Positions 4,063 through 32,491 of a DNA stretch of 33,453 nucleotides are shown piece after piece. Positions within the stretch are counted from its first letter, which is position 1, and each line of letters starts with the position of its first letter. Origin of the DNA: an uncultured Methylophaga sp. (GTDB taxonomy: Bacteria; Pseudomonadota; Gammaproteobacteria; GCF-002020875); NCBI GenBank assembly GCA_937877715.1, contig CALEHW010000019.1, forward strand, positions 1 through 33,453. Direction: 5' to 3'. The position numbers and the translations under genes are program-made. The notes beneath the pieces are model-generated. The model was not told the DNA's origin and did no database searches. It saw only the letters and a program-made list of their open reading frames with translations.

Positions 4063-4390
4063 ACCAGGTACCTGAGAGAAGTTGGGTTGCAATGTATCTG
4101 ATCTCATTTGGAGTCAGTATGGGAGCCCATGGTGGCATAGGGGTGCCCGGGCGTCCATGAAAGATGGTGACCTCAAGAAAGCCCTCCGGGTAGAGGTTGA
4201 GACGTGCGGGATCCAGGCTTGGCCCAAGCCCACCCTTCAGGGTAAGTCCGTGACAGGATCCGCAATCCTGTTTGACCATATGGCCAATCTCCGCCCTCCT
4301 CTCGCTGGAGAGAGCCCCCACATCCGCGATTGCCGGTAGTGGAAGAGAGAGAGTCAATAGTATAGCGGCTGTTGCGACTCTCCTGTTCAT
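4049..4390 (-). CDS. nirC: NirC-like small monoheme cytochrome c
   Basis: A 113-residue exported class I cytochrome c. The signal peptide is about residues 1-22 (cleavage near AIA-DV). The single heme motif CGSCH is at residues 43-47, and a distal methionine is likely in GTPMPPW. Small cytochromes of this type sit in d1 synthesis operons, where NirC is thought to take electrons from the last steps of heme d1 synthesis or to feed NirS. Its position between nirE and nirF, with a 4-nt overlap with nirE upstream and a 14-nt overlap with nirF downstream, supports the NirC assignment rather than a general electron carrier. Confidence 0.78.
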   Translation of the reverse strand: MNRRVATAAILLTLSLPLPAIADVGALSSERRAEIGHMVKQDCGSCHGLTLKGGLGPSLDPARLNLYPEGFLEVTIFHGRPGTPMPPWAPILTPNEIRYIATQLLSGTWYEPK

Positions 4391-7257: not shown

Positions 7258-7305
7258 GCTGAATTTAATCTATTTTTACTTTAATTGATGTCCGGAGGTC
7301 ACTCT

Positions 7306-9066
7306 ATGTCTGAAAAAACAGAGGCTGAACAGAAAAAAACAGGTTTTTTCTCTCGCCGTATAATTTTCAATACAACTCTTGGTGCAGGGCTATTTTTTGC
7401 GCTTGTGGGTATTATTTTCTGGGGTGGTTTCAATACATCAATGGAGATGACAAATACCCTTGAGTTCTGTATCTCCTGTCATGAGATGGAGGATAACGTC
7501 TATGAGGAGTATCAGAAGACGGTTCATTACGCCAACCGTTCAGGTGTACGGGCGACATGTTCTGATTGTCATGTGCCTGATCCATGGATTCATAAGGTAG
7601 TAAGAAAGATTCAAGCCAGCAAAGAGGTATGGCACATGTTATTGGGGACTATTGATACCCCTGAAAAATTTGATGCGAAACGACTGACTTTGGCAAAAAA
7701 TGTCTGGAATGCAATGAAGAAGACAGATTCACGGGAGTGTAGAAACTGTCATGACTTTACATCCATGGATAAAAACATGCAGAAGCCACGTGCACAGAAG
7801 CAGCACGCAAATGCTCTGCGTGACGGCCAGACATGTATTGACTGTCACAAGGGTATTGCACACAATGATGTTCGCAAGCTGTTGAGTGATGAGGAGCTGG
7901 AGGCACTTGAGGCACCAGATGCCACAATTGCACATCCTGATGCAAAGCTGTTTGAATTGAAGGATATTGCTCCTGAGTTGGCGGTAGCTAAGGAAGAAGA
8001 GCGTAAAGCTGCAGAGGAGATGGCTGCTGCAGAACGTGAGACAGAGATCAAGCAGGCAGCGGTAGCAATGGCATCCGAGATGGCCAAAACAATGGCTGAA
8101 GAGATGGCAGCTGCAGCTGCAGCAGGCAAGAGTACTGCTGAATCTGGAGCAGGCATTGATGAGCGCTGGAACTCAATTGAGGGCCGCAAGATCACTCTGC
8201 TCTACCCTGGCCAGACATCCATGGAGTGGGTCCTTAATGGTAAGGATCATGGTGGCGCACGACCATTTACCAAGGGTGGTGACAGATGCTTTACCTGTCA
8301 TGATAAAGAGGCCGACAAGATGGGAACCAAGATTGTTGGTGGCAAGCATCAATCAGCTGCAGAGCCAGCGCCAGTCAAAGGCAAGCGTGGTGGTATCCCT
8401 GTAACTGTTAAGGCAGCTCACGATGATGAGAACCTCTATCTACACTTCCACTGGCATGACGGTGGTATCCCTGTGGCTGAGGGTGAGCGTATGGATGCAG
8501 AGAATGCTGTCAAGCTGGCAATGATGTTTGCAACGGATGAGGTTGAGTATGCAGACCGTGCCGGTTGCTGGGGAACCTGTCACCATGATGCAAACGGTAT
8601 GCCTCACCAGCCTGAGGGTACTGATGTTGTGAAATACATCAAGGAGTCACGTAGCAAGATTGAGGTTAAGGGGCGTCGTGGCAAGAAACGTGGTGGCTGG
8701 AATAAACTGCGCAAGCCAGAGGAGATCACTGCAGCCATGGAAGCAAAGAAGTTTATGGATCTGATCCGCTATAAGTCAGATGGTACAGTTGAGGATGGAT
8801 ATATCCTTGATAACCGTGTGATGGATGGCAACATCTCTGATGTGGAGATGGTGTCAGAGAATGCGAACGGAATGTGGACAGTGGTCATGAAGCGTAAGCT
8901 GAACTCTGGTGATGCTGATGACATCGCACTGGAGAATGGTAAGCTCTACAACTTTGGGTTTGCAATTCATGATGATTATAGTGATGGACGATTCCACCAC
9001 GTATCCCTTGGATACAAGCTTGGTCTGGATGATCCAAAAGCAGAGATCAATGCTGTAAGGTGGTAG
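7306..9066 (+). CDS. NapC/NirT-type tetraheme cytochrome fused to a heme-binding domain
   Basis: Membrane-anchored multiheme protein of 586 residues. The start at 7306 is chosen because GGAGG lies 7 bases upstream; the in-frame TTG/ATG at 7285/7288 lie before that site. One transmembrane helix (about 20-41) precedes four CXXCH motifs at 55, 85, 145 and 177, the NapC/NirT pattern that oxidises quinol and reduces a periplasmic acceptor. An alanine/glutamate-rich, probably coiled-coil linker (about 225-275) leads to a C-terminal domain with CFTCH at 328 and CWGTCH at 421. That domain resembles the ethylbenzene dehydrogenase/cytochrome c-552-type heme-binding domain. CWGTCH has three residues between the cysteines, an atypical heme motif. 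Lying after nirS, the protein probably passes quinol electrons toward NirS, perhaps through the fused domain. Confidence 0.85.
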
Positions 9067-9457: not shown

Positions 9458-10147
9458 CTAGTCGATCAGCACCTCACGCATCTTGTCGGCATTGAGGATG
9501 CGGATATCATTGCCATTGACCTCAATCATCTTGCTCTTCTTTAATTTTCCAAGAATGCGGGAGAAGGTCTCACGCTGAATGGAGAGACGTGATGCAATTA
9601 CGCTCTTCTGGGTCGGGAGGTGGAATTCAGTCACATTGTGTTCATCTGCTGGAATAAAGGAGAGCAGGTAGCTGATTAATCGATGGGTGGCATTATGGAG
9701 GCAGAGGTTATCGATCTCCATTACATGCCCTTGCAGACGGCGACTAAGGTCTGCCATGATTGGAAATACTGTTTCCGGATTCTTGTGCAGGATCTTCTGA
9801 TAGACCTGATTATTGAAGGAGAAGACCTCTCCAGTTTCCAGGAACTGGCTGTTAACGGGGTAAGCTCCTCGATCCATGAACATTACCGCCTCGGCAAAGG
9901 AGTTTCCTGCCTGCAGGATATTGATGGTCTTTTCATTGCCATCAGGGGCAAGTAGAAATAGTCTAATTGTGCCCGTTCGTACGACGTAAAAGTGCTTGGC
10001 CTCATCCCCTTGCGAGAACAGGATTTCATCCTGTTTTTTTCTAATCAGATCAGAGGAGGTGACAACATTTTTCATTGCCTCCTTGCTCAGAGATGAGAAG
10101 AGTGGAGAGCGACGAATCTCGCGTTCAAAAACCGGTGATAGTGACAT
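9458..10147 (-). CDS. dnr: Crp/Fnr-family regulator, DNR/NnrR-like
   Basis: A 229-residue transcription factor with an N-terminal cyclic-nucleotide-binding-like sensor domain (about 20-130), a dimer helix and a C-terminal winged helix. The recognition helix carries the E-x-x-S-R pattern (RETFSR) that in FNR reads TTGAT half-sites. The N-terminal cysteine cluster that holds the Fe-S centre of FNR is absent; the only cysteine is in the dimer-helix region. That points to a DNR-type, heme-dependent NO sensor rather than an oxygen sensor. The presence of TTGAT-N4-ATCAA-like boxes before nirE, nosZ and other operons in this window fits it as their activator. Whether it responds to NO here is inference. 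Confidence 0.82.
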   Translation of the reverse strand: MSLSPVFEREIRRSPLFSSLSKEAMKNVVTSSDLIRKKQDEILFSQGDEAKHFYVVRTGTIRLFLLAPDGNEKTINILQAGNSFAEAVMFMDRGAYPVNSQFLETGEVFSFNNQVYQKILHKNPETVFPIMADLSRRLQGHVMEIDNLCLHNATHRLISYLLSFIPADEHNVTEFHLPTQKSVIASRLSIQRETFSRILGKLKKSKMIEVNGNDIRILNADKMREVLID

Positions 10148-10387: not shown

Positions 10388-10684
10388 CTATGCCGTTGAA
10401 TTAACCTGATGGCAGCTGGGAATATCCACCAGAATTTTGTCACGATTATCTATATGTTGGCCAGTTGCGGTAATTTCGACCAGAAAATCCCCGTTAGCAG
10501 TGGAGTGGCTATCTATCAGAAAGCCATTTTTTTTCAGGTGGCCAAAGAGTGGTTGAGGCTCAACACTGATTAGCAGCTCAAACGACTCCCCGGGATCAAG
10601 TGCCATAGCTTGCTCAGTTGCCTTTCTGAACGGTTCTGGACAGGACAGTCCGCGGACATCAAGTGGGGTAGGGATGTTTTTCAT
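10388..10684 (-). CDS. TusA/SirA-like sulfur carrier family protein
   Basis: A 98-residue cytoplasmic protein with the family signature near the N-terminus: LDVRGLSCPEP, in which Cys15 is the sulfur-carrying residue. The helix and strands of the two-layer fold follow, but the C-terminal tail is somewhat longer than in classical TusA. TusA relatives pass persulfide sulfur to cofactor and tRNA pathways, or take part in dissimilatory sulfur oxidation. Here it follows the ZnuA-SCO gene by 60 bases on the same strand and precedes dnr. A link to sulfide delivery for the NosZ copper-sulfide centre is possible but unproven. Confidence 0.7.
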   Translation of the reverse strand: MKNIPTPLDVRGLSCPEPFRKATEQAMALDPGESFELLISVEPQPLFGHLKKNGFLIDSHSTANGDFLVEITATGQHIDNRDKILVDIPSCHQVNSTA

Positions 10685-10744: not shown

Positions 10745-12160
10745 CTATTTCGGCAGAATTTCCCGAATGCGTGAGGCCATCTCATCGGCAGAGATACCAT
10801 GGGCAAGTTTGGTGATGAATTCACCATTGGGGGCCATCAGGAAGACCCCGGATGAGTGGTCCATGAGATACTGATTGGTTCCTCTCGATGCATCGACAAC
10901 CTTCTCGTATTTAACGTGGTATGTGTTGGCAACGCGTTCAATCATCCTCTGTGTTCCGGTCAGTCCAACCAGTGTTGGATGGAAGTAGGCGACGTAGGTG
11001 CTTAGTACATCGGGAGTGTCTCGTGCCGGATCTACAGTGATAAAGTAGGGGCGGATCTCCTCGCTATCTTTGCCCAATTTCTCCAGTGCCCCAGAGATGG
11101 TGATCAGAGAGGTAGGGCAGACATCCGGGCAGAATGTATAGCCAAAGTAGACTAGATGAAATTTGCCCACCATATTTTGGTCGGTAAAGAGTTTTCCATG
11201 GTGGTCACGGAGCATGAATTTTCTACCAATCTGGGCTGGTGGAGGGGGCTCCTGTACGTTATCGTCAGTGGCCTCTTCCGTGGCGATATTTGCGATTTCA
11301 TACTTCATACACTGTTTTATGGTGGCTGTGTTCTGCTCCATTAGCCTGAAGTAGTGGTCCGGTCCAGCATCTATCATGGAGCCGAAGCTATCCAGTATGC
11401 CAATATTGATATCTGTTCCAGTAGTGAGTATGGAGTAATCATTGGGGTTAATCTGCTCTTCGGTCAGCAAACAGCTATAGTCACCGCTCCTGAGTTTTGC
11501 TCGGCTCTCTAGCAGAGATAACCCGGTAACAGGGGTTGTTGGGGACTCTGCTACCACCCCCCGAATCTTGAGGGCATACGCCTGTTCAAAGTACTGCAGG
11601 GTGTCATAGTAGGCTATACCGATGCCACTCTTTAGTCCCCTGTACCCATACTCCAGGCGACGATCCAGTTCGGCCACTCTATATAACATATTGCGCCGGT
11701 TCTTCTCATAGAGAGGCTTACGCTGCGGATCAAGTCTCATCAGTGCCCTGGCAAGTTCGTCTACGAGGATAAGTATGTTGCGGCTGTCCAGCCAGAAGAA
11801 CGGATCACGCTTCTCCTTGTCCCAGCGTGATAGCAATACCTTTATCTCTTCATTGTCCAATAAGGTAAAGAGGGTTGTGTCCGGACCAAGCAGTTTGATC
11901 TGGTTAACCATAAACTGCTCAAGCTCTGGCCCAACCCAGACCACGATATCTGCATCACGTATGCTATGCTGCTGCTCTCTCGAGAGCTTTACCCTATATG
12001 GGGATTGTCTGTCTACAAGAAGTTCTGGTGGTCGGGTATCGGCCAGCAATCCAGATAGAATCGAGTGAATCGGTTTTATGGTGGCAATGACTCTGAGAGG
12101 CTCTCCACCCCATGTGGTTAAGGAGAAGAGGAGCAGCACAAGGAGAGAGAGTAGTCTCAA
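10745..12160 (-). CDS. ZnuA-like binding protein fused to SCO1/SenC copper chaperone
   Basis: A 471-residue exported fusion. A signal peptide (about 1-18) is followed by a ZnuA-type metal-binding protein domain (about 22-290; DADIVVWVGPELEQFM is characteristic). A proline-rich linker (about 300-310) leads to a SCO1/SenC thioredoxin-fold domain (about 311-471). The SCO copper ligands are present: CPDVC at 344-348 and His435. In the ZnuA part all three zinc-ligand histidines of the E. coli protein appear replaced (Tyr55, Phe121, Tyr185), the His-rich loop is absent, and only the acidic ligand position (Asp257) remains. It probably is not a zinc importer component but a periplasmic copper chaperone, plausibly for NosZ. 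The gene overlaps the upstream small-protein gene by 4 nt (ATGA). Confidence 0.83.
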   Translation of the reverse strand: MRLLSLLVLLLFSLTTWGGEPLRVIATIKPIHSILSGLLADTRPPELLVDRQSPYRVKLSREQQHSIRDADIVVWVGPELEQFMVNQIKLLGPDTTLFTLLDNEEIKVLLSRWDKEKRDPFFWLDSRNILILVDELARALMRLDPQRKPLYEKNRRNMLYRVAELDRRLEYGYRGLKSGIGIAYYDTLQYFEQAYALKIRGVVAESPTTPVTGLSLLESRAKLRSGDYSCLLTEEQINPNDYSILTTGTDINIGILDSFGSMIDAGPDHYFRLMEQNTATIKQCMKYEIANIATEEATDDNVQEPPPPAQIGRKFMLRDHHGKLFTDQNMVGKFHLVYFGYTFCPDVCPTSLITISGALEKLGKDSEEIRPYFITVDPARDTPDVLSTYVAYFHPTLVGLTGTQRMIERVANTYHVKYEKVVDASRGTNQYLMDHSSGVFLMAPNGEFITKLAHGISADEMASRIREILPK

Positions 12161-12501
12161 AACAACTTCTCCTGGTGGTTGATGAATGCTCTCTCCAGCA
12201 ATTCAATGCGCTCGTCAACCTGCTTGCCAATGGTTTTCTCACTGGGGCAAGCCTCTCTTGCGGTTATCATGGCAAGAAATGCTTCATTGGTCGACTGCTC
12301 AAAGGCGATGCCAATGGGGCGAATTTTGGGGACGGTTGAGACCAGTGAGCGCTTCATTCTGTGGGTCTCGTTGAGATAGCCACAGTTAAGGGCAACTCCA
12401 TTCAGTGATCCTAGCTGCTTGATGGCATCAAACTGCTCGTCATTGATTGCAGAGGCAATGGTTGCGAATAGTAACAGAGCGACTATCCATGCTGTTTTCA
12501 T
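12157..12501 (-). CDS. Small secreted two-cysteine protein of unknown function
   Basis: A 114-residue protein with a clear signal peptide (about 1-18, cleavage after ASA). The mature part is helical, with two cysteines (Cys40 and Cys85) that could form a disulfide. No family is recognised. The start at 12501 is preferred because only this gives a signal peptide; the open frame continues upstream with unrelated sequence. It is the first gene of an operon with the ZnuA-SCO fusion (4-nt overlap) and has a consensus DNR box about 42 bp before its predicted transcription start. A role with the fusion in periplasmic metal handling is a guess from context. Confidence 0.65.
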   Translation of the reverse strand: MKTAWIVALLLFATIASAINDEQFDAIKQLGSLNGVALNCGYLNETHRMKRSLVSTVPKIRPIGIAFEQSTNEAFLAMITAREACPSEKTIGKQVDERIELLERAFINHQEKLF

Positions 12502-12617: not shown

Positions 12618-13493
12618 ATGAGTAGTCCATGGCTGAGCGCAATCCGCCCCAAGACTCTATCCATAGGGGTGGTTCCGGTGCTGCTCGGAGCCACGATCGC
12701 CCATGCAGAGGGGGCTCTGATGCAACCGGTACTGCTGCCCCTGATCCTGCTGGCAGCACTACTGATTCAGATAGGGACCAATCTGCATAATGATGCTGGA
12801 GATGCGGTTAGGGGGGCAGATGGTCCAGACCGTATTGGTCCAAAACGGACAGTGGCAGAGGGGTGGTTGAGTGCGGCTGAGGTAAAAAGAGCAGCCATCG
12901 GATGTTTTTCCGCTGCACTATTGATCGGATTGTATATGGTCAAGGTTGGTGGTCTCCCTGTATTGATTATGGGGGTTCTGTCTATTGGTGCAGGGGTTGC
13001 ATATACTGGGGGCAGACTACCGATTGCCTATACCATGTTGGGTGAACTTTTTGTCTTTCTCTTTTTTGGGGTTGTTGCGGTTTCAGGTACGGTCTACCTG
13101 CTAACTCTGCAGTGGAGCATCATCTCCATCTGGCTGGGAGCTGCGGTCGGGATGCATGCCGCTGCCGTACTGGTGGTCAACAACTATCGGGATATTGATA
13201 CCGATAGACGGGCCGCAAAGTTGACCCTGGCGACCCATCTTGGAAAACGGGCAAGCAGATGGCTCTATCTGCTGCTGTTGGCACTGCCATTTCCGTTGCT
13301 GATGGTTGTTGCAGAGCTATTGCAGAAGCCGCTTCTGATCTGGGTTATTATCCCGGCACTGCTGTTTGCTCTTTACTTGGGTAGGGAGATCTACCGTATC
13401 CCCCATGGCAGAGGTCTGAACAGGCTGTTGGCTCAGACGGCACAACTACAGCTCCTGTATGGGGTTTTGATTATTTTGGGAATTCAATTATGA
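12618..13493 (+). CDS. menA: MenA, 1,4-dihydroxy-2-naphthoate polyprenyltransferase
   Basis: Integral membrane UbiA-superfamily prenyltransferase of 291 residues. It attaches the polyprenyl tail to 1,4-dihydroxy-2-naphthoate, giving demethylmenaquinol. The first aspartate-rich motif is in NLHNDAGDAVRGADGPDR and the second in NNYRDIDTDRRAAKLTLATHLG. About eight or nine hydrophobic helices are visible. The N-terminal 'WLSAIRPKTL' is the usual MenA start, supporting ATG 12618, although the preceding AAGAAG is a weak ribosome binding site. It opens a rightward operon (menA, triheme cytochrome, ubiE, menE) with 4-nt overlaps. A DNR box overlaps its promoter region. Confidence 0.93.
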   Translation: MSSPWLSAIRPKTLSIGVVPVLLGATIAHAEGALMQPVLLPLILLAALLIQIGTNLHNDAGDAVRGADGPDRIGPKRTVAEGWLSAAEVKRAAIGCFSAALLIGLYMVKVGGLPVLIMGVLSIGAGVAYTGGRLPIAYTMLGELFVFLFFGVVAVSGTVYLLTLQWSIISIWLGAAVGMHAAAVLVVNNYRDIDTDRRAAKLTLATHLGKRASRWLYLLLLALPFPLLMVVAELLQKPLLIWVIIPALLFALYLGREIYRIPHGRGLNRLLAQTAQLQLLYGVLIILGIQL

Positions 13494-22078: not shown

Positions 22079-22906
22079 TTACAGCTGATCACCACGACGA
22101 AACAGCAGATAGCCGGTAGTAGCAGTAACGGTACCCAGAGCAAGTGGGTAGACCATTGCCCAGATCAGATACCAGAACTCTCCAAAGTGATCGAGGATCA
22201 AATAAGCCGAGGGGCCGAGCAGAACCAGCTGGGGATCAAACAGCAGCATCGAGGCGGTACGGAAAACTTGTAGTGGGTTGCTAAGGGCGATGGTAACGAT
22301 AGTCTCTGATGAAACTTGCTGCTGAATCAGTATACCCAGAAGAATAAGGTCCAGGAATAGCAGTAGAAAAAGCCAGACCAGAAAGGCGCTGCCCTGCGCA
22401 ACATCTGGTGAGCGGGCAAGGGTAGAGATCAACATGCCGATTCCAAGAAAGCACCAGGAGAGGGAGAAGAGGAATGCTGTGTAGTAGAGGAAGAGTGACC
22501 ATGGGATCTCCATCCCCTGGATAACTCCCCAGACGATCGCTCCAGCCATTGCCAGGAATACCGGCATGAATACTACGGCAAAGCGCCCAAACATCTTGCC
22601 CCAGAACCATGAAGAAAGGGATACCGGGAGGGACAACAGGTACTCGAATATCCCGGCATCACGGTCACCAGCCACAGAACGGATTGTGGTGATCAGGATA
22701 AAGATCGGCAGGATCGCCATGGAGAGTTGGATGTAGGTTATCAGCAGGCGTGAGAGGCCGACAAAGCCCATGATTCTGGATTCGGTCAGGCCAAACGCAA
22801 ACAGAAGGGCGATGATTCCACCAAAGACGATGGAGTAAATCATGAACCATCTGCTACGCAGGGATTCCGATATGTCGGCTTTGGCTGTCAACCAAGTATG
22901 TCTCAT
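22079..22906 (-). CDS. nosY: NosY, membrane subunit of the NosFY transporter
   Basis: ABC-2-type permease of 275 residues with six hydrophobic helices. It includes the conserved 'SVAGDRDAGIFEYLLSLPVS' loop that follows the first helices in NosY. Together with the ATPase NosF and periplasmic NosD it forms a complex needed to build the copper-sulfide centre of NosZ, probably by moving a sulfur species or driving copper transfer from NosL. The start overlaps the nosL stop by 4 nt. In most clusters nosY directly follows nosF; here nosL lies between them. Confidence 0.92.
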   Translation of the reverse strand: MRHTWLTAKADISESLRSRWFMIYSIVFGGIIALLFAFGLTESRIMGFVGLSRLLITYIQLSMAILPIFILITTIRSVAGDRDAGIFEYLLSLPVSLSSWFWGKMFGRFAVVFMPVFLAMAGAIVWGVIQGMEIPWSLFLYYTAFLFSLSWCFLGIGMLISTLARSPDVAQGSAFLVWLFLLLFLDLILLGILIQQQVSSETIVTIALSNPLQVFRTASMLLFDPQLVLLGPSAYLILDHFGEFWYLIWAMVYPLALGTVTATTGYLLFRRGDQL

Positions 22907-23412
22907 TGTGATCTCCCTCTTGACTCTTCCCTGCGGTGGGCAATCCGCGCCTTGGCTGATGCCTGGTAGGCCGCCTCTTGTTCAAAAATAGCTGATCTCA
23001 TCTGCTGATAGCCAATAGCTCCCTCGCTGTTCCCCTGTTGCGCACTGAATCCATAATTCATCGGGGTGTGGGTTACTTTTACGTAGTGTGCATCTCTGGC
23101 ATCAAGCCAGCTCCCATCCTGATAGTTATTGACCCATATCTCGGTAGCTGGATCACTCCCCCAGCTCTGCTCCTCAAGCCAGAGTAGTGCGCAGCCAATA
23201 TCGTCAAAGTGGAATACCTTGTTGAGTTCTCCTCCACGCACCTGGGCAGAGTGGTATCGATCACTAAGAGCCATCACGCAGCGGTCACAGTTGTCGCGAT
23301 CCCAGGTTACCTCAACCGGACCTGTTGCTGGATCACCACTGCACCCCACCAAAAACAGCAGCGGGGTCAGGCCTGCATGTTTGGCAAGATGGTGCAGGAT
23401 TTTGCTAAACAT
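22903..23412 (-). CDS. nosL: NosL, copper-binding lipoprotein
   Basis: Outer-membrane or periplasmic lipoprotein of 169 residues that delivers Cu(I) for the NosZ copper centres. Lipobox LVGC puts the lipidated cysteine at residue 24. The Cu(I) site is Cys42-x2-Cys45-x-Met47 (NCDRCVM), as in NosL proteins. The start at 23412 is chosen because it gives the lipoprotein signal; it overlaps the end of nosF by 8 nt. The first 18 or so codons lie within a near-perfect 29-bp inverted repeat, which thus supplies the start codon and signal-peptide N-region. Confidence 0.88.
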   Translation of the reverse strand: MFSKILHHLAKHAGLTPLLFLVGCSGDPATGPVEVTWDRDNCDRCVMALSDRYHSAQVRGGELNKVFHFDDIGCALLWLEEQSWGSDPATEIWVNNYQDGSWLDARDAHYVKVTHTPMNYGFSAQQGNSEGAIGYQQMRSAIFEQEAAYQASAKARIAHRREESRGRSQ

Positions 23413-23430
23413 GCAGGCCTGACCCCGCTG
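23359..23430. repeat. 29-bp inverted repeat at the nosF/nosL junction
   Basis: The arms at 23359-23387 and 23402-23430 are reverse complements with a single mismatch, separated by 14 bases. The arm core is GGGGTCAGGCCTGCATG. It covers the last nosF codons, the nosL start and the nosL signal peptide. Size and shape resemble a REP/MITE-type palindromic element. No second copy is seen in this window. Confidence 0.8.
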
Positions 23431-24289
23431 TTTGCTCTCTGTTCTCCTCGATATGGACGCTGGAGAGCAGGGCCGCATAGCGTGAAAGCATCCCCAGAAA
23501 GCGGAGACGGTCAGGTCCCGGGATGGCACCGCTCCACTCTGTTTCACCCCCCTGGTTGCCGAATCCCCATGAGCTTATGGCAGTGGAGAAGGCAGGCTCT
23601 ACTCTGGTGGTCGATATAGTGCAGTTCAGCAGGCTTGATAGTTCAATGCTGTCATCGACACGATCATCCAGAATTACCTCTCCACGATCTAGCTCAATCA
23701 CTCGGTTAACCAGTGAAGCTACCTCGTCTAGGCGGTGGCTGGAGATCAACATGGCGTTCTTCTTCTGCCTCTTCTCCAGCATGGAGAAGAGGATATGGCG
23801 TGCCTTTGGATCAAGATTGGCTGCCGGTTCATCCATGATCAGCAGATTCGTGGGGCGCCCCAGGGCGATGGCGATCAGCAGTTTCTGTTTCTGTCCTCCG
23901 GAGAGTTTTACAAATGGTTGCCTACGGATCGCCGAGAGATCCAGCCCCAGCTGATCGGTTACATGTTCCATCTCTTCGATACCACAGTCACAGACACTGG
24001 CTGCAAAATTGAGCAGCTGCTGAACCGGCATTTTCAGTGGTGGTGGTAGCTGAGGGACAAAACCGATGCTGGATAGCACCTCTCTCCGATCTTTTCGGGG
24101 GTCTAGTCTATTAACCGTGATCTCTCCATCAAAGCTGTACTCGCCTAGCAGGCAGCGGATCAGTGTAGTTTTTCCTGCTCCATTAGAGCCGATAAGAGCT
24201 ACACGATCGCCAGTCTGGATCTGCAGATCCAGCTTCTTGAGGACAGCAGTACGTTTAAAGGTTTTTGATACCTTTTGCAGAGTAATCAT
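23405..24289 (-). CDS. nosF: NosF, ATPase of the NosFY transporter
   Basis: Cytoplasmic ABC ATPase of 294 residues that powers the NosDFY complex in NosZ maturation. Walker A is GSNGAGKTT (about 34-42), the signature is LSGGQKQK, and Walker B is LLIMDEP, followed by the H-loop 'LISSHRLDEV'. The N-terminal 200 residues are typical. The last eight residues are encoded by the arm of an inverted repeat shared with nosL, so the original C-terminus may have been replaced. The gene begins 13 bases after nosH. Confidence 0.93.
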   Translation of the reverse strand: MITLQKVSKTFKRTAVLKKLDLQIQTGDRVALIGSNGAGKTTLIRCLLGEYSFDGEITVNRLDPRKDRREVLSSIGFVPQLPPPLKMPVQQLLNFAASVCDCGIEEMEHVTDQLGLDLSAIRRQPFVKLSGGQKQKLLIAIALGRPTNLLIMDEPAANLDPKARHILFSMLEKRQKKNAMLISSHRLDEVASLVNRVIELDRGEVILDDRVDDSIELSSLLNCTISTTRVEPAFSTAISSWGFGNQGGETEWSGAIPGPDRLRFLGMLSRYAALLSSVHIEENREQTAGSGLHV

Positions 24290-24302
24290 TGGTTGAGATC
24301 TC

Positions 24303-25280
24303 TCATTTCTTCTTGCTCAACCCCTTGAAGTGGTAGCTGAGTGAGTCGGTTGGACAGACATCCACACACATACCACAGCGGGTACAGTCGGGTCCAAGTT
24401 CAACATTGATTTTTGGGGCACGCCCCTTGATGGTCCACTCCAGTACATGTGGCACCAGGCAGACCTTGCGGCAGTCTCCCTCATGGTGGCAGGCATCGAC
24501 ATTGTAGTTGATTTTTAGGGGCGAGAAGATTCCGACAAAGCCATAGGTCAGGCCGATAGGACAGGCATATCGGCACCATGCACGACGTGAGTAGAAGATC
24601 TCTACAGTAAGCAGGAACAGTACCCAGAGCAGGGCAACAGTGGGGCCGTAGATCAAGGCACGACTGAGAATGCCAGTAGGGGATATGGTCTCGAATACGG
24701 TGTAGCCGGTCACCAGGGCAAGCAGGGCAAAAATGATATATAGGTAGAGGCGTGCCTTGCGGTTGAAGATATGGTTTTTGATGATCTTTTTTTCAATGAG
24801 TTTAAGATGAATCATCTCTGCAAATTCAGAGATCAGATGGTAGGGGCAGACCCAAGAGCAGAAGGCGCGCCCCCCCAGCAATAACCAGATAATGAGTACA
24901 GTTACGGTACCGATCAACAGGTTGATCACCACCACCTTGAAGGCAAGCACTACCTGCAGTGCAGAGTTGAGATCCGCCATATGGAAGCCCAAGAAGCGGG
25001 AGGCGGTCAGTGCCCCCTCCAGCACCTGAATATCCAGGGCGTAGGAGAATACAAAAAGAAGATTTATGAGGACAAGTGTGGTCCAGCGACGTCTTTTCCA
25101 CTTTTTCTTGTGATTGTCACGATATATCTGGTGAGCCTCCCGGATCTTGAATTTATCCAGCTCACCACTCTCTTTTTTGCGCTCATGTAGTTCCTGAGCT
25201 TCTGGAGATATCTTCTCGGGCAGAGTCTTGACAGGGCTCTGCCCGAGCATGATGTTGACACAATATCTTCCAATCTTCAT
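24303..25280 (-). CDS. nosH: NosH, NapH-like membrane iron-sulfur protein
   Basis: Membrane ferredoxin of 325 residues with about four transmembrane helices and the two cytoplasm-facing CX3CP motifs of NapH/NosR-like proteins (CSWVCP and CRYACP). The C-terminus carries Fe-S clusters in 'CHHEGDCRKVC' and 'CTRCGMCVDVCP'. In clade II nos systems NosH is proposed to oxidise menaquinol and pass electrons to NosG and on to cytochromes c. The start at 25280 follows a strong GGGAGG ribosome binding site and overlaps nosG by 4 nt. An 11-bp perfect inverted repeat (25215-25247) lies in its first codons. Confidence 0.88.
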   Translation of the reverse strand: MKIGRYCVNIMLGQSPVKTLPEKISPEAQELHERKKESGELDKFKIREAHQIYRDNHKKKWKRRRWTTLVLINLLFVFSYALDIQVLEGALTASRFLGFHMADLNSALQVVLAFKVVVINLLIGTVTVLIIWLLLGGRAFCSWVCPYHLISEFAEMIHLKLIEKKIIKNHIFNRKARLYLYIIFALLALVTGYTVFETISPTGILSRALIYGPTVALLWVLFLLTVEIFYSRRAWCRYACPIGLTYGFVGIFSPLKINYNVDACHHEGDCRKVCLVPHVLEWTIKGRAPKINVELGPDCTRCGMCVDVCPTDSLSYHFKGLSKKK

Positions 25281-26107
25281 GCCTGACCTCCCGTTATCTG
25301 TTCCCAGGTTGCCCGCTGATCGATAACAATGGAGGGGGCTGTGGTTGGACATACCATCTCGCAGACGCCACACCCCACACACCCTTCAAGAATGGTTGGG
25401 CGATACTGGGCACGTCCCTCTGGTGTTGTCTCCAGCATAAGCTCTATGGCACGGTTGGGAGGACACTGGTTGATATCATTGGAAGGTGGGGTTCCTGCAT
25501 CACACTGGTCGGCACGTATCTCGATCGGGCAGAGGCGAACACAGAGATCACAGAGCTCAAGATCAAAATATTGCTCATTCAGTGGCAGTGGATTCCAGCG
25601 GTCAATCTTGTCAAAACGGAGTTTTCCTCCATACTCTACCCCACGGGTAATACCATTAAACCCGGCCCCCTGCATTGCAAGACACTGATCTGGTAGCTCC
25701 AGTCTGGCATATCCCATCCTGGTCTCGTGAGGGTAGTTGATCTCGTGAGTCAGAGCCCCGGTTGGACATGCCAGTACACACTGCAGTCCATCGCACGAGA
25801 AGTCACAGGCCTGTGCCCGGGCATCGATATAGGCTGCCCCCTGTCCCTGCCCATCAAATATGTCCGCCAACTCAATCGCCTCCACGGGGCATACCTGGAC
25901 ACACTGACCGCATTTAATGCAGGAGGCGAGATACTCCTTCTCATCCAGGGCACCGGGTGGACGTAGCCGTGGATTGGCGTTGGTCATGGTTGGAATAAGG
26001 TTCAGCAGGGAGAAACCGGTAACTCCGGCAACCATTACCGAGGTTCTCAGAAACTCTCTTCGCGCCTTCTCTTCTCTTGTTAGCCGGGTAGTTTTTTTAC
26101 TGCTCAC
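25277..26107 (-). CDS. nosG: NosG, NapG-like Tat-exported ferredoxin
   Basis: Periplasmic polyferredoxin of 276 residues. A twin-arginine signal (RREFLR, residues 16-21) precedes a hydrophobic stretch. Four cysteine clusters follow: CIKCGQCVQVCP, a variant CDFSCDGLQCVLACP, CDLCVRLCP and CVGCGVCEMVCP, consistent with four [4Fe-4S] centres as in NapG. It should form a menaquinol-oxidising pair with NosH and donate to the nos cytochromes. The start codon is GTG, overlapping the nosD stop (TAGTG). NapA and other nap genes are absent, so NosG is favoured over NapG. Confidence 0.88.
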   Translation of the reverse strand: MSSKKTTRLTREEKARREFLRTSVMVAGVTGFSLLNLIPTMTNANPRLRPPGALDEKEYLASCIKCGQCVQVCPVEAIELADIFDGQGQGAAYIDARAQACDFSCDGLQCVLACPTGALTHEINYPHETRMGYARLELPDQCLAMQGAGFNGITRGVEYGGKLRFDKIDRWNPLPLNEQYFDLELCDLCVRLCPIEIRADQCDAGTPPSNDINQCPPNRAIELMLETTPEGRAQYRPTILEGCVGCGVCEMVCPTTAPSIVIDQRATWEQITGGQA

Positions 26108-27537
26108 TATTTCAGACTCTTTTCAAGTAATTTCAGTGACGATCCCCAGTCTCTGGATGATGACTGGTTCGTTTCATCGGTTGTAACAGTTGCGGACTCG
26201 TCGCTCCTGTCATCTCTCTTGCCCCCACCGCTGATCTGCCATCTGCTCTCCATCTTGGCGGCTCTCAGCAGCGGTTTCTCATCTCTCAACAGTAGTGTTG
26301 GTTCCGAGAACGGCGCCAGCTGTTCAAGAAAGTCCAGTGTCTCCAGCAGGGGGGTACCCATAAAGAAACGGGTATCCGGACGGTCCATCCAGATTCTGTC
26401 TGCATAGGCATAGAGTTTATATGGAGTATCTCCGGTGCCATCTCTGTTCTGGTCAAATCCCTCGTAATCATCCCAGTGGTTTCCCTCCCACACATTCTTG
26501 GTTGCACTCCCGTTTCCATCAACTACCACCTGGCTGATATTGTCCTTGAATGTGTTGTTGCGAGCAATATTTCCCCACCAAGGGGTGTGGAAGAGGATAC
26601 CGATACCGTTAAATGCCACCAGATTGTTCTCCATCAGGTTGGTGGTATCTGGTTGGTATGGAGAGACATCACTATAGATGCCGGTGGCACAGTATAGAAT
26701 CTTGTTGTCTGTAATCTTTACGTCACTGGTCTCCTTGAGGCCTATACCCATCCCTGTGACCCCCTGAGAGCGTGCAATATAGTTGTTCCTGATCACGGCA
26801 CCGTCACTGTACATCAGGAATATGCCAACCGAGTTGTTGGTGTATTCGTTGTCTTCAATCAGATTTCCCTGGGAGTACATGAAGTGGAGGGCATAGCGTC
26901 CACCGGAGGATTTGTTGCGGGCGATGGTGTTGTCGCTTGAGTACCAGACCACCATATCCCTGGTTCCAGTAATGATGTTGTCGGTAACCATATTGTTGAA
27001 GCTGTACCAGAGGCGAACAGAGTCTCCCTGTAGCCCCAGTGGACGATCACTCTTGGAGCTGATTCGGTTACGGCGAACAATGTTGTTTTCCGCCTGTCCG
27101 AGATCAACTCCAAACAGGCACTCCTCAATAATATTGTCCTTGATGACATTGAAGTTGCCATGTACCTGTACGCCAGAGTCTATGTCATTATGGGAGACAC
27201 CAGAGTTGACCAGTCTGAGATTCTGCAGAGTAGCACCATCGGTATCTATATAGACCACACTCCCTTTCCCCCCGGCATCAATGGTGACCCCATTTTTCCC
27301 ATCAATAGTGATCGGTTTTTCTATAGTAATGGGTCCTGCATAGGTGCCGGCAGGGGGGGTCAAAACTTCTCCACGCGGGGTGGCGTCTACCAACTCCTGA
27401 AAAGATGGGTGTTGTGGTTTGGCAGAGGCCACAGCCTGCGAGAGAGTTGAAAAGAGAGCAGACAGCAATATGGCAAACATCAGCCAGTGTGTAGTCAGCC
27501 GTACAAAATTACAGCTGACTACTGTGACCCGTTTCAT
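26107..27537 (-). CDS. nosD: NosD, periplasmic NosZ maturation protein
   Basis: Exported right-handed beta-helix protein of 476 residues with the repeated N-x-I-x-x-N strand pattern of the NosD/CASH family across about residues 80-370. The signal peptide is about 1-39. NosD sits on NosFY and supports assembly of the copper-sulfide centre. The segment after about residue 395 is an acidic and serine-rich tail beyond the usual helix, of unknown use. It follows nosB by 22 bases and overlaps nosG by one base. Confidence 0.92.
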   Translation of the reverse strand: MKRVTVVSCNFVRLTTHWLMFAILLSALFSTLSQAVASAKPQHPSFQELVDATPRGEVLTPPAGTYAGPITIEKPITIDGKNGVTIDAGGKGSVVYIDTDGATLQNLRLVNSGVSHNDIDSGVQVHGNFNVIKDNIIEECLFGVDLGQAENNIVRRNRISSKSDRPLGLQGDSVRLWYSFNNMVTDNIITGTRDMVVWYSSDNTIARNKSSGGRYALHFMYSQGNLIEDNEYTNNSVGIFLMYSDGAVIRNNYIARSQGVTGMGIGLKETSDVKITDNKILYCATGIYSDVSPYQPDTTNLMENNLVAFNGIGILFHTPWWGNIARNNTFKDNISQVVVDGNGSATKNVWEGNHWDDYEGFDQNRDGTGDTPYKLYAYADRIWMDRPDTRFFMGTPLLETLDFLEQLAPFSEPTLLLRDEKPLLRAAKMESRWQISGGGKRDDRSDESATVTTDETNQSSSRDWGSSLKLLEKSLK

Positions 27538-27559
27538 TGACTCAGACCTCTAATACAAA

Positions 27560-28771
27560 TTATTCGTGAGATGCCTTCAGGCGGATCAGTGCGGCGGCCG
27601 CGAGCACCACTGAGTTGAGCATGATTAGCCCAAAACCATAGTATGGGTAGGAGTAGGTAGAGAACTGTGCAACCTTACCAACACCAAATACAGTTGGCAT
27701 AAATGGCTTAACGGTAAATGCTCCCATCTCACTCAGATGGTGACCGAACCACCAGAGCCAACCGGCATAGTCCATGATAAAGAAGACAGGAAGAGCCATA
27801 GGAACCAGAATCAGCACCCAGGTGAACATCTTCTCCATCTTCCAGAGACCTATAATAACCAGTGCCATAGCAGCCAGCAGGCCACCAAAGACAACATTGG
27901 TAATGGTCATAATCATCCCGGTACGCTCGATATCGGTCATGCCAACCTTGCTGGCCATTACATTACAACGGGAGAGGAATTCACTCTGCTGCTGCTCTGC
28001 ATTCATGGAGGAGTCTTTCTTGATCAGGTCATACATGTCATGGAAGGTGGACATCACAGCTGAGGTAGCTCCTGCGTTTACCAGCAGGTCATTCAGCTCC
28101 TCAAATGGACGATCCTGGGTGGCATACAGGTCCACATAGGTCATTTTTGAGGCATAGCTCTCACAATCGACCCCGATGGTTGGAAAGTATCGGGCCAGAG
28201 ATTCTTCGTAACTGGCTTGGATTGCCTCGGTTCCACTCCAGCTCTCTATCTCTTCCGGTTTAAGCTGCATGGTGCTCATCAGGTCCTCTTTGTAGGGGCT
28301 GGATTGCATGCCAAGCCCCCCCTCAGTATAGAGGGTGGAGTAGGCCCAGCCAGCAATAAGGATTGAACCTGCACTCATCAGTATGATTCTCTGTCTGTTG
28401 TTGGGTATGGCAAAGGCAATCACCATCAGCCCCAGTAGGACAAAGACAAAGGGAGAGACGGCACGTTCAACCGGTGCGCCAGCTGCAATAGGATACATTC
28501 CTACATAGTGGTTGATGGCGTCCATCTCGTGTTTACAGTCGAGAGACTCCTCCTCAAACTTCTCTTCGGTCTCAACTTTTTCACAGCCATTAAAAACCCC
28601 GTTAACATGGAAGTGGATACGGATTCCCTGAGGAAATGCAGCATCCGGATATTGTGGGGCTTTCAGAGAGACCCACCAGATGGGGCTGTAGAAGATGGAG
28701 ATAAGTAGACCAAGGGCAATTAGGGAGAGAGTGCCTATGATCAGATTTTGTTTGTGGTTGGTAGTGCTCAT
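27560..28771 (-). CDS. nosB: NosB-like membrane protein of clade II nos clusters
   Basis: A 403-residue membrane protein with about six helices. The N-terminal helix is followed by a periplasmic segment 'YSPIWWVSLKAPQYPD' and later 'DAINHYVGMYPI', motifs seen in the conserved membrane protein NosB that marks clade II (Wolinella-type) nos clusters. A central soluble loop of about 120 residues holds three cysteines, and the C-terminal half has three or four further helices with 'WLWWFGHHLSEMGAF'. Its role is not established; it is needed with NosZ in the organisms that carry it. It stands after the diheme cytochrome gene and starts the nosBDGHFLY run. Confidence 0.8.
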   Translation of the reverse strand: MSTTNHKQNLIIGTLSLIALGLLISIFYSPIWWVSLKAPQYPDAAFPQGIRIHFHVNGVFNGCEKVETEEKFEEESLDCKHEMDAINHYVGMYPIAAGAPVERAVSPFVFVLLGLMVIAFAIPNNRQRIILMSAGSILIAGWAYSTLYTEGGLGMQSSPYKEDLMSTMQLKPEEIESWSGTEAIQASYEESLARYFPTIGVDCESYASKMTYVDLYATQDRPFEELNDLLVNAGATSAVMSTFHDMYDLIKKDSSMNAEQQQSEFLSRCNVMASKVGMTDIERTGMIMTITNVVFGGLLAAMALVIIGLWKMEKMFTWVLILVPMALPVFFIMDYAGWLWWFGHHLSEMGAFTVKPFMPTVFGVGKVAQFSTYSYPYYGFGLIMLNSVVLAAAALIRLKASHE

Positions 28772-28906
28772 GATTGTATAAACCTTACTCGTACATGGTG
28801 TAGATGAGTATTACATCGTTACCGCTCTCCATCTCATGTCAAAATCTCCCCAGGAGAAGGGTAAAGGGCTGCCCTCCAGAAGAGGAGGGCAGTAACATCT
28901 CAGGAC
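28772..28906 (-). promoter_or_regulatory. nosB leader with GC-rich hairpin
   Basis: CTGCCCTCC (28869-28877) pairs perfectly with GGAGGGCAG (28884-28892) around AGAAGA. It lies just past the diheme cytochrome stop on the minus strand, without a U-tract. It may tune read-through or protect the upstream transcript. No FNR/DNR box is found before nosB, so nosB is probably expressed by read-through. Confidence 0.4.
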
Positions 28907-29632
28907 TTAGTCATAATCAGGGTTCTGCCAGCCGATTGGCCCCAGATTTGCTGCAGGTACAGCAATACGGGAGGTATAATCGATAACTGCTCTCATATCA
29001 TCATTGCTGAACTCGGCAATCTGTTTGACCATGTCTGGATTTGCATTTCGACGCTTGCCATCACGAATCCACTCAAACTGACGAAGCATATACGCATAGT
29101 GCTGCCCCTGAATCTTGGGGTAGAATTTCTCCTGGTTACCCTCACCGTTGTCACCGTGGCACTGCGGACAGTTCTTTTTGTAGAGCTCTTCACCTCGAGC
29201 CAGATTGGTGCCGTCACCCTTACCGTTGTCCGGATTCATCGGTAGAGCGGCAATATATGCAGTAACATCTGCAATTGCCTGCTCATCACCAATCGACTCT
29301 GGGAGGGCGAATGGGTACATGGTTGGATTATCACGGTTGAGCGCACGAATATCTGCCAACTGTTTGATCAATACATTTCGGTGCTGGCCAGCAAGCTGAG
29401 GGAAGGTTCCATTTTGCATGCCCCATCCCTCAAGAAGGTGACAGGCAGAGCAGACCTCATAGACCTCAATGCCATTTTCACGGTCTGGGGTTAGCGTCAT
29501 GGCAACGCTCTGCTCACCCTCGCCAGTATTCCAATCCTTAACATCAGTTACCTGACCACTGGCAGAGGCAGTACTGCCAACACTCATTCCAATCATGGCA
29601 ACTCCAGCCGCAATTACTGTAATCTTCTTCAT
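28907..29632 (-). CDS. Diheme cytochrome c of the nos cluster
   Basis: Exported diheme c-type cytochrome of 241 residues. The signal peptide is about 1-24; heme motifs are CSACH at 61-65 and CPQCH at 155-159. Both halves share 'P.L.GQH..vL..Q' or 'P.I.GQHYAYMLRQF', showing two c4/c553-like domains. GGAGA precedes the ATG at a normal distance. It has its own DNR-type promoter and leads the operon that includes nosB to nosY. It is the likely periplasmic electron carrier between NosG/NosH and NosZ (NosC1/NosC2 role), which is inference from position. Confidence 0.87.
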   Translation of the reverse strand: MKKITVIAAGVAMIGMSVGSTASASGQVTDVKDWNTGEGEQSVAMTLTPDRENGIEVYEVCSACHLLEGWGMQNGTFPQLAGQHRNVLIKQLADIRALNRDNPTMYPFALPESIGDEQAIADVTAYIAALPMNPDNGKGDGTNLARGEELYKKNCPQCHGDNGEGNQEKFYPKIQGQHYAYMLRQFEWIRDGKRRNANPDMVKQIAEFSNDDMRAVIDYTSRIAVPAANLGPIGWQNPDYD

Positions 29633-29673
29633 TTACATTTTCTCCACTCTTTTAGTTTGCTCATATACTTTAC

Positions 29674-29715
29674 AGAATAGGTAAATAATCAAATCATCAC
29701 CTTGACCTGTATCAA
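29674..29715 (-). promoter_or_regulatory. DNR/FNR promoter of the diheme cytochrome-nosB operon
   Basis: On the minus strand the box reads TTGATACAGGTCAA (29715-29702), matching 9 of 10 fixed positions. TATTCT (29679-29674) is a fair -10. The predicted start near 29667 places the box centre at -41.5. Confidence 0.62.
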
Positions 29716-29752
29716 TGTAGACATTATCACTCAGAAAATATGGGTGTATTAG

Positions 29753-30073
29753 CTACTTCAGTGACGAGAGCCACTCAGCAATTTCAGCCATCTCAGCCTC
29801 ATTTACCAGCCCCATCACGCCCTGCATTGCAGCAGCTTGTCCATTACTACGAACTCCAGACTTGATGTCTTTCATCTGAGCGAGCGCATATTCCTTGTTC
29901 TGTCCAGCAAGCTTTGGATAAATTGGGAGAATCGGGGTCTGTGCATCTTTACCGTGGCAGGCCCAGCAGGTCTTGGCCTGGTAGAGTGAAGCACCATCTG
30001 CAGAGGCAGTTGTTGCCATTGCGGACAGTATGGCCATGGAGGAGGCAATTAATACAGTTTTCTTTAGATTCAT
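29753..30073 (-). CDS. Monoheme class I cytochrome c downstream of nosZ
   Basis: A 106-residue exported c553-like cytochrome. The signal peptide is about 1-25, the heme motif CWACH is at 36-40, and distal methionine candidates lie in AAMQGVMG. The start at 30073 has a GAGGA ribosome binding site 8 bases away; a longer frame to 30151 runs into the nosZ terminator and is rejected. It lies between nosZ and the diheme cytochrome, a place where a soluble donor to the NosZ copper centre would be expected. It may be transcribed by read-through of the nosZ terminator or from its own weak promoter. Confidence 0.85.
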   Translation of the reverse strand: MNLKKTVLIASSMAILSAMATTASADGASLYQAKTCWACHGKDAQTPILPIYPKLAGQNKEYALAQMKDIKSGVRSNGQAAAMQGVMGLVNEAEMAEIAEWLSSLK

Positions 30074-30133
30074 GTTTTGTTCCTCAGTTATTAAATAGTT
30101 GTTATAGATCCTGGTACTGCTAGGATTTTTTTG

Positions 30134-30163
30134 AAAAAAGGGGGAGAGCAATTGCTCTCCCCC
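30134..30163 (-). terminator. Intrinsic terminator of nosZ
   Basis: A perfect 24-base palindrome (30140-30163, GGGGGAGAGCAA and its complement) is followed on the minus strand by a run of six T (30139-30134). It starts 34 bases past the nosZ stop codon. Confidence 0.85.
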
Positions 30164-30196: not shown

Positions 30197-32491
30197 TTAT
30201 TTCACAATTTTTGCACCATGCTCTTCCAGGTAAGTCTTGGCACGTAGACCAATGTCTGCGGCCTTCACCTGGTACTGCCACCACTGGCCAGCCTGCAGGG
30301 TTCCATTCTGGAAGTCACCTGCTCCAGCAGATTCCTCTGCCTTCTTGCGCCAGGTCTCAGCAAAGCCCAACTGATCTACTGCATCCTCAACCAGCGCGGT
30401 TACTGGAGCAAAGTCAGTATAGTTGGTGCTGGTGATATAGCCTACAACACTGTCGATGACGGCTTGAGTATCCAGATTGGTCTGGTACTGCTTGTCGTAA
30501 TCAGCCTTGCTGTAGACGGTACCTTCTTGCATTGCACCAACTTCTGCCTTGTAACCTTTTGGTTTAACCAGAAGGTAGCCTTCCATCTCGAGGTGGAGCG
30601 CTGAACAGAACTCAGTACAGTAGTAAGGGAAGACACCCTCGATATCTGCAGTAAAGGTTGCAGAAACGGTCTTACCAGGTTCGATAGAGAGGTTTACATT
30701 GGTGCCGTTGACTGCGAAACCGTGGGTCTCATCCTCAGCACGCTCCAGGTTGGTCAGGTGAATAATTACCTTGTCACCAACCTCAGCCTCAATTGTCTCT
30801 GGTGTGATGTGTGAACGAATCACAGTACCAAAGACCTCAACCGTACAGTTGTCACCATCACATGTGCGGACAGTCTTTTCACGACCAGCACGGGTCTTGA
30901 ACTTGGAGCGCGTGTCAGTACGGCTGTTCCATCCAGACTTGTAGCGAATGCCAGGTTTCAGCTTGTCTGCCTTGATTGCAACTACATAGTGCGGTTCGCC
31001 CAGTGGTAGTGGCATATCATAGAGAAGTTCCATCTTGTCACCCTTGATATCAATCAACTGGTGGTTCTGTGGATGAAGTGGACCGACCGGATTGAAACGG
31101 TCAATAGCCAACTTATTCAGAGAGACAAGATACTTGCCGTCTGGAGAGGCGGAATCGCCCTCCATTGCAACCAGGTGGCCGATATTGTAGTGGACAGAGA
31201 GCTTGTCCAGAATCTCACCAGTACAGTAGTTCCACTTGGTGACCTGTGAGTCAACGTAGATTGAGGTGAAGACCGTACAATCCTTGGAGTCATACTGGGT
31301 ATGCAGGGGACCAAGTCCTACCTGTACCTGCGTATGAAGCGAGTCCTCCAGAGAGACGATAGGGATACCGTAGGTATCACGAGCCTCATATTTGCCAGCA
31401 TTATGTGCAGCCATCATCTTCTCGAAGCTGTAGACATAAGCGTGGCTGTCCAGCTTGCCGGAAACGATGATATGGGCACCATCAGGAGATACATCTACGC
31501 CGTGTGGGCTTTTTGGCTCTGGAACCAGGAATAGGGCGTTATTCTCCACCATTGTCTCCATGGAGAGTACATCCATCCCATTAATAGATTTACCTTTTCC
31601 TGCCTTGTAGAGCTCTGCCGCTTTCTTCCAGTTAATTGCATGGAGGAAGTCAGTGTCTTTCTGGGAACAACCTGCCTCATAAGGAGGACGACCCTTCTCG
31701 ATGCCACCAACATAACGCTCAGAACAGAAGGAGTTGGTGAAGGACCAGCCATCACTCACAAATTTACCAGTATCGGATAGATCCTGGCTGTATGGAGGGA
31801 GCTCGACCGTGAAGGATTGAGATTGGTCAATGCGACCCTTCTCATTGTCGAAGCTCCAGTAGGTGACACCACCACGGTAGCGGTCATTAAACTGCTCCAG
31901 TGGGACATACTCGTTCTCGAATGGAGCAGGATACTGTGCCGCCTCAACAATATAGTCAGTATTTGGAGTTACAAAAGCACCACCATGCTCATTATTGAAG
32001 TGTGGGTTAACCACAATTTGTTTGGTCTCGAAGTCATGTAGATCAATCACTGCTATGCGAGGGTTAGCCTTGTCATTGATGAAAAGGTACTTACCGTTGT
32101 ACTCACCCTCTGTCTCAGAGAAAGCGGGGTGGTGGGTGTCACCAAAGTTGATCTGCTTCCCGTTGATGTTTCCTTGAGCCAATACTGCCTTGGACTCATC
32201 ATCAAAGCCATATCCCTGCCATGGCTCTGGCGTGAATACGCCGATGTATTTAAGAATACGCATTGAAGGGATTCCGTAGACAATAACCTGCCCACTCTGT
32301 CCGCCGGAGCTGAAGGCGAGATATTCATCACGTCCGCCAGATGGGGTATAGGTTTTAGCTGCCGCTAGCAGATCCTTCTGTGTGAGGCCACGCTCTTTCA
32401 TGACATCATCCAGCGAGGAGGACCACGCTGCACTTCCGGTACCGAGCGACATTCCGATGGCAGTTGCCATTGTGAGCGTCTTCTTAAGCAT
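30197..32491 (-). CDS. nosZ: Clade II-type nitrous oxide reductase NosZ
   Basis: Periplasmic enzyme reducing N2O to N2; 764 residues from ATG 32491, which has AGGAG upstream (a longer frame to 32641 is rejected). The leader is a Sec-type signal without twin arginines, the mark of clade II NosZ. The seven-bladed propeller carries the CuZ histidines in contexts such as 'NNEHGGAF', 'KSPHGVDVS', 'GLGPLHTQYD', 'YNIGHLVA' and 'LGEPHYVVAI'. The CuA site is Cys625-x3-Cys629-x3-His633-x2-Met636. About 117 helical residues follow the CuA domain; unlike the Wolinella enzyme, no CXXCH heme motif is present there. A DNR promoter precedes it and a strong terminator follows. Confidence 0.95.
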   Translation of the reverse strand: MLKKTLTMATAIGMSLGTGSAAWSSSLDDVMKERGLTQKDLLAAAKTYTPSGGRDEYLAFSSGGQSGQVIVYGIPSMRILKYIGVFTPEPWQGYGFDDESKAVLAQGNINGKQINFGDTHHPAFSETEGEYNGKYLFINDKANPRIAVIDLHDFETKQIVVNPHFNNEHGGAFVTPNTDYIVEAAQYPAPFENEYVPLEQFNDRYRGGVTYWSFDNEKGRIDQSQSFTVELPPYSQDLSDTGKFVSDGWSFTNSFCSERYVGGIEKGRPPYEAGCSQKDTDFLHAINWKKAAELYKAGKGKSINGMDVLSMETMVENNALFLVPEPKSPHGVDVSPDGAHIIVSGKLDSHAYVYSFEKMMAAHNAGKYEARDTYGIPIVSLEDSLHTQVQVGLGPLHTQYDSKDCTVFTSIYVDSQVTKWNYCTGEILDKLSVHYNIGHLVAMEGDSASPDGKYLVSLNKLAIDRFNPVGPLHPQNHQLIDIKGDKMELLYDMPLPLGEPHYVVAIKADKLKPGIRYKSGWNSRTDTRSKFKTRAGREKTVRTCDGDNCTVEVFGTVIRSHITPETIEAEVGDKVIIHLTNLERAEDETHGFAVNGTNVNLSIEPGKTVSATFTADIEGVFPYYCTEFCSALHLEMEGYLLVKPKGYKAEVGAMQEGTVYSKADYDKQYQTNLDTQAVIDSVVGYITSTNYTDFAPVTALVEDAVDQLGFAETWRKKAEESAGAGDFQNGTLQAGQWWQYQVKAADIGLRAKTYLEEHGAKIVK

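Follow-up and report, generated by a model that had tools for sequence, protein, structure and literature searches.

A gene of an uncultured Methylophaga sp. encodes a ZnuA-like domain (Z) fused to an SCO1/SenC domain (SCO) and follows the gene of a small secreted protein (S). On the grounds of sequence comparison and of analogy with known chaperones, S, Z and SCO together may well constitute a periplasmic module for copper delivery to, or maturation of, the clade II N2O reductase NosZ, probably at its CuA site and with Z in a docking role. The window in which the gene was found is a stretch of 33,453 nucleotides (assembly GCA_937877715.1, contig CALEHW010000019.1, positions 1 to 33,453), and the features that define the module are as follows.

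10745..12160 (-), ZnuA-like (Z) + SCO fusion gene, 471 aa, TTG start (Pfam, AF2, Foldseek)
11303..12097 (-), Z domain, aa 22-286, ZnuA fold, invariant Cys230/Cys284 pair
11222..11299 (-), flexible linker from Z to SCO, aa 288-313, pLDDT <50 in the AF2 model
10748..11224 (-), SCO1/SenC domain, aa 313-471 (PF02630)
11117..11131 (-), CPDVC copper motif, Cys344 and Cys348, invariant in 62/62
10856..10858 (-), His435, third SCO copper ligand, invariant in 62/62
12157..12501 (-), secreted protein S, 114 aa, invariant C40 and C85, predicted four-helix

The fusion protein and its family

The TTG start of the fusion gene shares the letters TTGA with the stop codon of the S gene and has an AGGAG ~8 nt on its 5' side. 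Pfam assigns the Z half to ZnuA (PF01297, aa 24-284, E 1.7e-32, 113 bits against a curated cut-off of 29) and the other half to SCO1-SenC (PF02630, aa 313-448, E 1.9e-46, 158 bits), the best PDB sequence match of the latter being Bradyrhizobium ScoI (4wbj, E 9.7e-36). An AlphaFold2 model of the fusion, built with 57 family sequences, had a mean pLDDT of 89.4 and consisted of two well-formed domains joined by a disordered linker, with an arrangement of the domains that is not fixed (pTM 0.64). When the model was compared with solved structures in Foldseek, Z matched ZnuA with a TMt of up to 0.91 and the second domain matched ScoI/Sco1 with a TMt of 0.90. Z thus keeps the ZnuA fold, for which an earlier note on this DNA had suggested a structural comparison, and the SCO half is as intact as that note held, with the ligands of CPDVC and His435 unchanged throughout the family.

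A search for further ZnuA-SCO fusions had also been proposed, and >60 homologous fusions were found, all of them in Gammaproteobacteria: Sedimenticola, Thiodiazotropha symbionts, other Chromatiales, Thiohalomonas and Thioglobus perditus. The scan used exact peptide patterns over ~85,000 species genomes and additional same-genus genomes, and so finds close relatives and undercounts the family; the Z motif QYFEQxYA in particular missed genomes with NYFEQAYA, YYFEQAYA or QYFSQAYA, which surfaced only via S. Conservation over dozens of species rules out a chance reading frame or an assembly artefact as the source of the fusion.

Elsewhere in the genome there is an orthodox znuA-znuC-znuB set with a Fur-family regulator, its ZnuA carrying the three His, and a second SCO gene lies beside a PCuAC-like gene (names given from reading the sequences by eye). 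Since the genome keeps its own znuABC and a separate SCO, the fusion is not the housekeeping copy of ZnuA or SCO and replaces neither.

The altered zinc site

Residues were assigned to columns by a HMMER alignment of the window protein to the solved ZnuA of E. coli and Salmonella; the E. coli ligands are numbered His60, His143 and His207. At the first site SPYRV in the window stands opposite SEHDY in ZnuA (H60 to Y55), at the second DPFFWLD opposite NMHLWLS (H143 to F121) and at the third AYYDTLQYFE opposite VFHDAYGYFE (H207 to Y185). The acidic ligand is retained as D257 (GILDSFG opposite GTLDPLG). Composition of the family at the four positions is given with each codon.

11996..11998 (-), Tyr55 codon, ZnuA His60 position; family Y35/F12/H9 of 64
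11798..11800 (-), Phe121 codon, ZnuA His143 position; family F34/Y20/H9 of 65
11606..11608 (-), Tyr185 codon, ZnuA His207 position; family Y24/F21/H18 of 65
11390..11392 (-), Asp257 codon, ZnuA acidic ligand position; family D49/N14 of 63

This alignment bears out the replacement of the three ligand His by Tyr55, Phe121 and Tyr185, which the earlier note had read, as well as the absence of the His-rich loop; persistence of the fold motifs and of Asp257, also claimed there, is confirmed by alignment, Pfam and Foldseek. The three ligand His that characterise a ZnuA-type SBP are therefore missing from the window Z, and 41 of 65 members have none of them, 17 have one, two have two and five have three. 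Apart from Y, F and H, the ligand sites are at times occupied by L, W, Q or G. Within the genus, homologues carry Y, F or L at the first two sites, and a single H was seen, at the third; the substitutions are thus neither chance nor a sequencing error. Genes for a partner ABC permease or ATPase were not found among the recurrent neighbours of the fusion loci. At the three classical sites the window protein has no histidine, but His32 (KPIHS) is conserved in 64/65 members of the family and in 8/9 of the orthodox ZnuAs, which leaves the cleft region not certainly histidine-free.

In a Z tree computed without the ligand-site columns, orthodox ZnuAs fell on one side (support 100/100) and the five three-His members formed one clade nested deep inside the family (support 100/100). 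These five (L062 and L066-L069, Thiodiazotropha-type) have Asn in place of Asp257. Their His triad was probably regained, as regain in so deeply nested a clade is simpler than many losses. His at site 185 changes state eight times or more.

The family reaches down to ~40% identity with >20 Z columns invariant, the Cys230/Cys284 pair among them, and R118, R127, Y171-G175, Y184, T187, Q193, A194 and A196 are fixed in it and not in nine orthodox ZnuAs. Along the sequence, several of these family-fixed residues lie close to the former ligand sites. With its fold and Cys pair conserved, Z is remodelled rather than decaying, and selection acts on a rebuilt binding region but not on the classical zinc site.

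It is unlikely, in our estimation, that Z has retained the binding of a metal (probably copper) at an altered site and feeds it to SCO, which would make the fusion a copper-collecting SBP joined to its acceptor. The ligands could then be Asp257, Tyr, the conserved His32, or those His that part of the family has kept or regained. The presence of Asp or Asn at position 257 in 63/63, of His32 in 64/65, and of His at single sites and in one clade at all three speaks for this reading. Streptococcal AdcA (PDB 7jj9), a Foldseek match, is a precedent for an SBP fused to a metal-binding domain. However, no classical His position is conserved, the tolerance of Y, F, L, W, Q and G is unusual for metal sites, and His32, which orthodox ZnuAs conserve just as well, is therefore a mark of the fold and not of a new site.

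The small partner protein and natural rearrangements

S, which was overlooked in the earlier note, is together with SCO the most constant core of the system. A homologue of S lies directly upstream of the fusion, usually overlapping it, in 62/63 loci, the sole exception starting at a contig edge. Its AF2 model has four helices (pLDDT 91.6), and searches of Pfam, PDB sequences and PDB folds with S gave no significant match.

Three genomes depart from the usual arrangement. In the same-genus genome G001, S and SCO form one protein without Z, which has a gene of its own that stops where the Z half of the fusion stops (loci L112, 4377-5270, and L111, 6202-7161). G019, from another family, has S next to an SCO that is not fused, and its Z gene follows a DsbA-like and a DsbD/CcdA-like gene. 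The single-contig genome G179 has S adjoining SCO, and Z was not found in it, there being only a weak ZnuA match 28% identical. Such natural fission and re-fusion shows that S, Z and SCO belong together, with the bond between S and SCO the tightest. The description of Z as a retired zinc scaffold covalently tied to a copper chaperone is not upheld as it was put: the zinc site is lost in most members, but the His state ranges from 0 to 3, Z is separate in G001 and G019, and with no Z in G179 the tie is not invariant.

Two observations concern the surroundings of stand-alone Z genes. That of G001 adjoins a cas1-like gene (name given by eye), and the position of that of G019 after the DsbA-like and DsbD/CcdA-like genes (L108, 5964-8442) is possibly a hint of a thiol redox linkage.

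Association with clade II nitrous oxide reductase

The window contains a full clade II nos cluster, and the fusion module itself is placed near nirS and a cupredoxin, 18 kb from nosZ.

30197..32488 (-), nosZ, clade II type, PF18764 8.5e-33, 77% identical to Thiodiazotropha NosZ
22079..30151 (-), remaining clade II nos cluster, homologous to the nos genes adjoining the fusion in other loci

The remaining cluster comprises two cytochromes c and NosB-like, NosD, NosG-like, NosH-like, NosF, NosL and NosY genes. Across the family, where neighbour clusters were computed on greedily selected ORFs to avoid antisense shadow ORFs, genetic linkage to nosZ of the kind that marks a clade II nos accessory gene was found: nosZ is the next downstream gene on the same strand in 18 loci, at a gap of 176-325 nt, and 24 loci have nosZ, NosD, NosG-like or NosB-like genes as neighbours of the fusion. 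This adjacency is spread over several separate branches, with seven changes on the tree. In over half of the loci the flank that was retrieved holds no nos gene, many of the contigs being short.

Whether other genomes with the fusion carry nosZ had been posed as a check, and 44/50 do, mostly draft MAGs; nosZ is absent from view in 6/50, perhaps through incompleteness. All six same-genus genomes have nosZ, though matches within the genus count as a single lineage. In a sample of 369 genomes of the class, 24 were called positive for clade II nosZ at >=70% identity to the query, and S was present in 10/24 of these as against 1/345 of the others. The association gave a Fisher p of 2e-12, or of 3e-8 with one count per family, in a sample that is not phylogenetically independent. 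S is missing from 14/24 clade II nosZ genomes, hence the S-Z-SCO module is one solution among others and is not universally needed. Weak ZnuA matches in further clade II nosZ genomes (L137 and L139) were considered as Z and rejected as orthodox His-bearing ZnuAs.

That the module matures another copper site, in a haem-copper oxidase or in the cupredoxin donor of NirS, so that its coupling with nos would reflect denitrification alone, is quite unlikely. The window module does have nirS and a cupredoxin close by, nir neighbours of the same kinds occur at locus L080, and 6/50 fusion genomes lack a visible nosZ; on the other hand nosZ is directly adjacent in 18 loci, S is associated with clade II nosZ, and a further SCO with a PCuAC-like gene is encoded in the genome. 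The earlier note had proposed a copper-delivery protein for NosZ or a cytochrome oxidase. The tie to NosZ is upheld by the genomic evidence, NosZ is a likelier target than an oxidase in view of the second SCO and PCuAC-like gene and the co-occurrence with clade II nosZ, and copper delivery itself is an interpretation.

Proposed function

For a module serving NosZ, we infer that copper is the cargo and CuA the target, and that Z is a docking protein rather than one that binds a ligand. The CxxxC/His site of the SCO domain would carry copper (or reducing equivalents) and pass this on to NosZ, at the CuA site of its cupredoxin domain, a step proposed by analogy with Sco/PCuAC of Paracoccus. Z would be a ZnuA-derived scaffold that has lost classical Zn(II) binding, whose aromatic-filled cleft and new conserved residues may serve in docking or recognition of S or apo-NosZ and so hold SCO in place, and S would be the near-constant small partner of SCO. 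A bolder version is advanced tentatively, in which S-Z-SCO would be an undescribed machine for copper insertion into CuA, with Z in non-metal docking or ligand sensing and S a new family with a fold absent among solved structures.

Binding of an organic ligand or a metal-ligand complex (e.g. a copper chelate) in the old cleft of Z, for delivery to SCO, would be consistent with the aromatics that replace the ligands and with the family-fixed new residues, as in a repurposed pocket under selection; but none of the recurrent neighbours was recognised as a gene for making or taking up a ligand of this kind, and the idea is decidedly unlikely. It is scarcely credible that the ZnuA half is a decaying relic, as loss of the ligands and the splitting off or absence of Z in some genomes are outweighed by >20 invariant Z columns at ~40% identity, a fold with TMt 0.91, the invariant Cys pair and a nested three-His clade that does not fit decay, and frequent frameshifts or stops in Z were not seen in the family.

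Relation to known systems

Z resembles ZnuA and other cluster A-I SBPs (E. coli ZnuA, PDB 2osv and 2ps9) in its fold (TMt 0.87-0.91), long backbone helix, Cys pair and Asp at the fourth ligand position, whereas the window protein lacks the three ligand His, the His-rich loop and a nearby ABC transporter partner and is fused to SCO. Likewise the SCO half shares the domain fold and the CPDVC and His ligands with SCO1/SenC chaperones (ScoI, PDB 4wbj), but follows a secreted ZnuA-like domain in the same chain, is coupled with S and has a tie to nosZ. AdcA is like the fusion in joining a ZnuA-type SBP to a second metal protein and unlike it in having a solved zinc-bound structure and another partner domain. 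It works in zinc import, and its domains (PDB 7jj9) are ZnuA-like and ZinT-like.

NosZ is the known N2O-destroying enzyme and fails when copper is short (PMC6530538). When copper is low, N2O reduction in Paracoccus is supported by homologues of Sco (SenC2) and PCuAC; these have been assigned to CuA, and NosL to CuZ (PMC7558416, PMC6530538). SenC2 thus provides the parallel of a Sco homologue that aids copper loading of NosZ, a role that the SCO studied here would have by analogy; the Paracoccus Sco and PCuAC homologues are separate proteins, and no ZnuA-like part or S is described for them in the review (PMC7558416). NosL is, as the module would be, a periplasmic copper chaperone of the nos cluster (PMC6530538), but it is neither an SCO nor a ZnuA protein and serves CuZ, and the window has a NosL-like gene of its own. 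No description of the fusion was found in open-licence papers, in none of which nosZ, ZnuA and SCO1 occurred together. S, Z and SCO are genes that can be tested for CuA loading in cultured Sedimenticola. Z also shows clearly how a scaffold for metal transport can be put to new use once its metal ligands are lost, and the fusion has ties to the removal of N2O, a greenhouse gas, across many marine sulphur bacteria.

Regulation and other genes of the window

Downstream of the fusion are two smaller genes, and an FNR/DNR-type box precedes S.

10388..10684 (-), DUF2249/TusA-like protein, PF10006 4.9e-11
9458..10147 (-), CRP/FNR-family (DNR-like) regulator, PF00027 and PF13545
12593..12606, perfect FNR/DNR-type box TTGATCAAGATCAA, centre 98 bp upstream of the S ATG

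The DUF2249/TusA-like gene is a conserved neighbour of the fusion only within the genus. Control of the operon by DNR, as the earlier note had it, agrees with the perfect box before S, but the same TTGATCAAGATCAA box is 11 bp upstream of the start of a divergent UbiA-family gene at 12618, and since the two share it the target is not proven. Boxes with one mismatch precede nirS (5256 and 5306) and nosZ (32618). Among 55 loci an exact box was found upstream of S in nine (~1.1 expected), several of the nine being closely related, and a box with at most one mismatch in 16 (3.5 expected).

Two other cytochromes of the window deserve mention. A second cytochrome d1-domain protein at 2863-4107(-) is NirF/NirN-like and has no cytochrome c domain match. 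At 7303-9066(+) a NapC/NirT-type multihaem cytochrome is joined to an ethylbenzene-dehydrogenase-type haem domain (PF09459), and this fusion cytochrome adjoins nirS and the cupredoxin.
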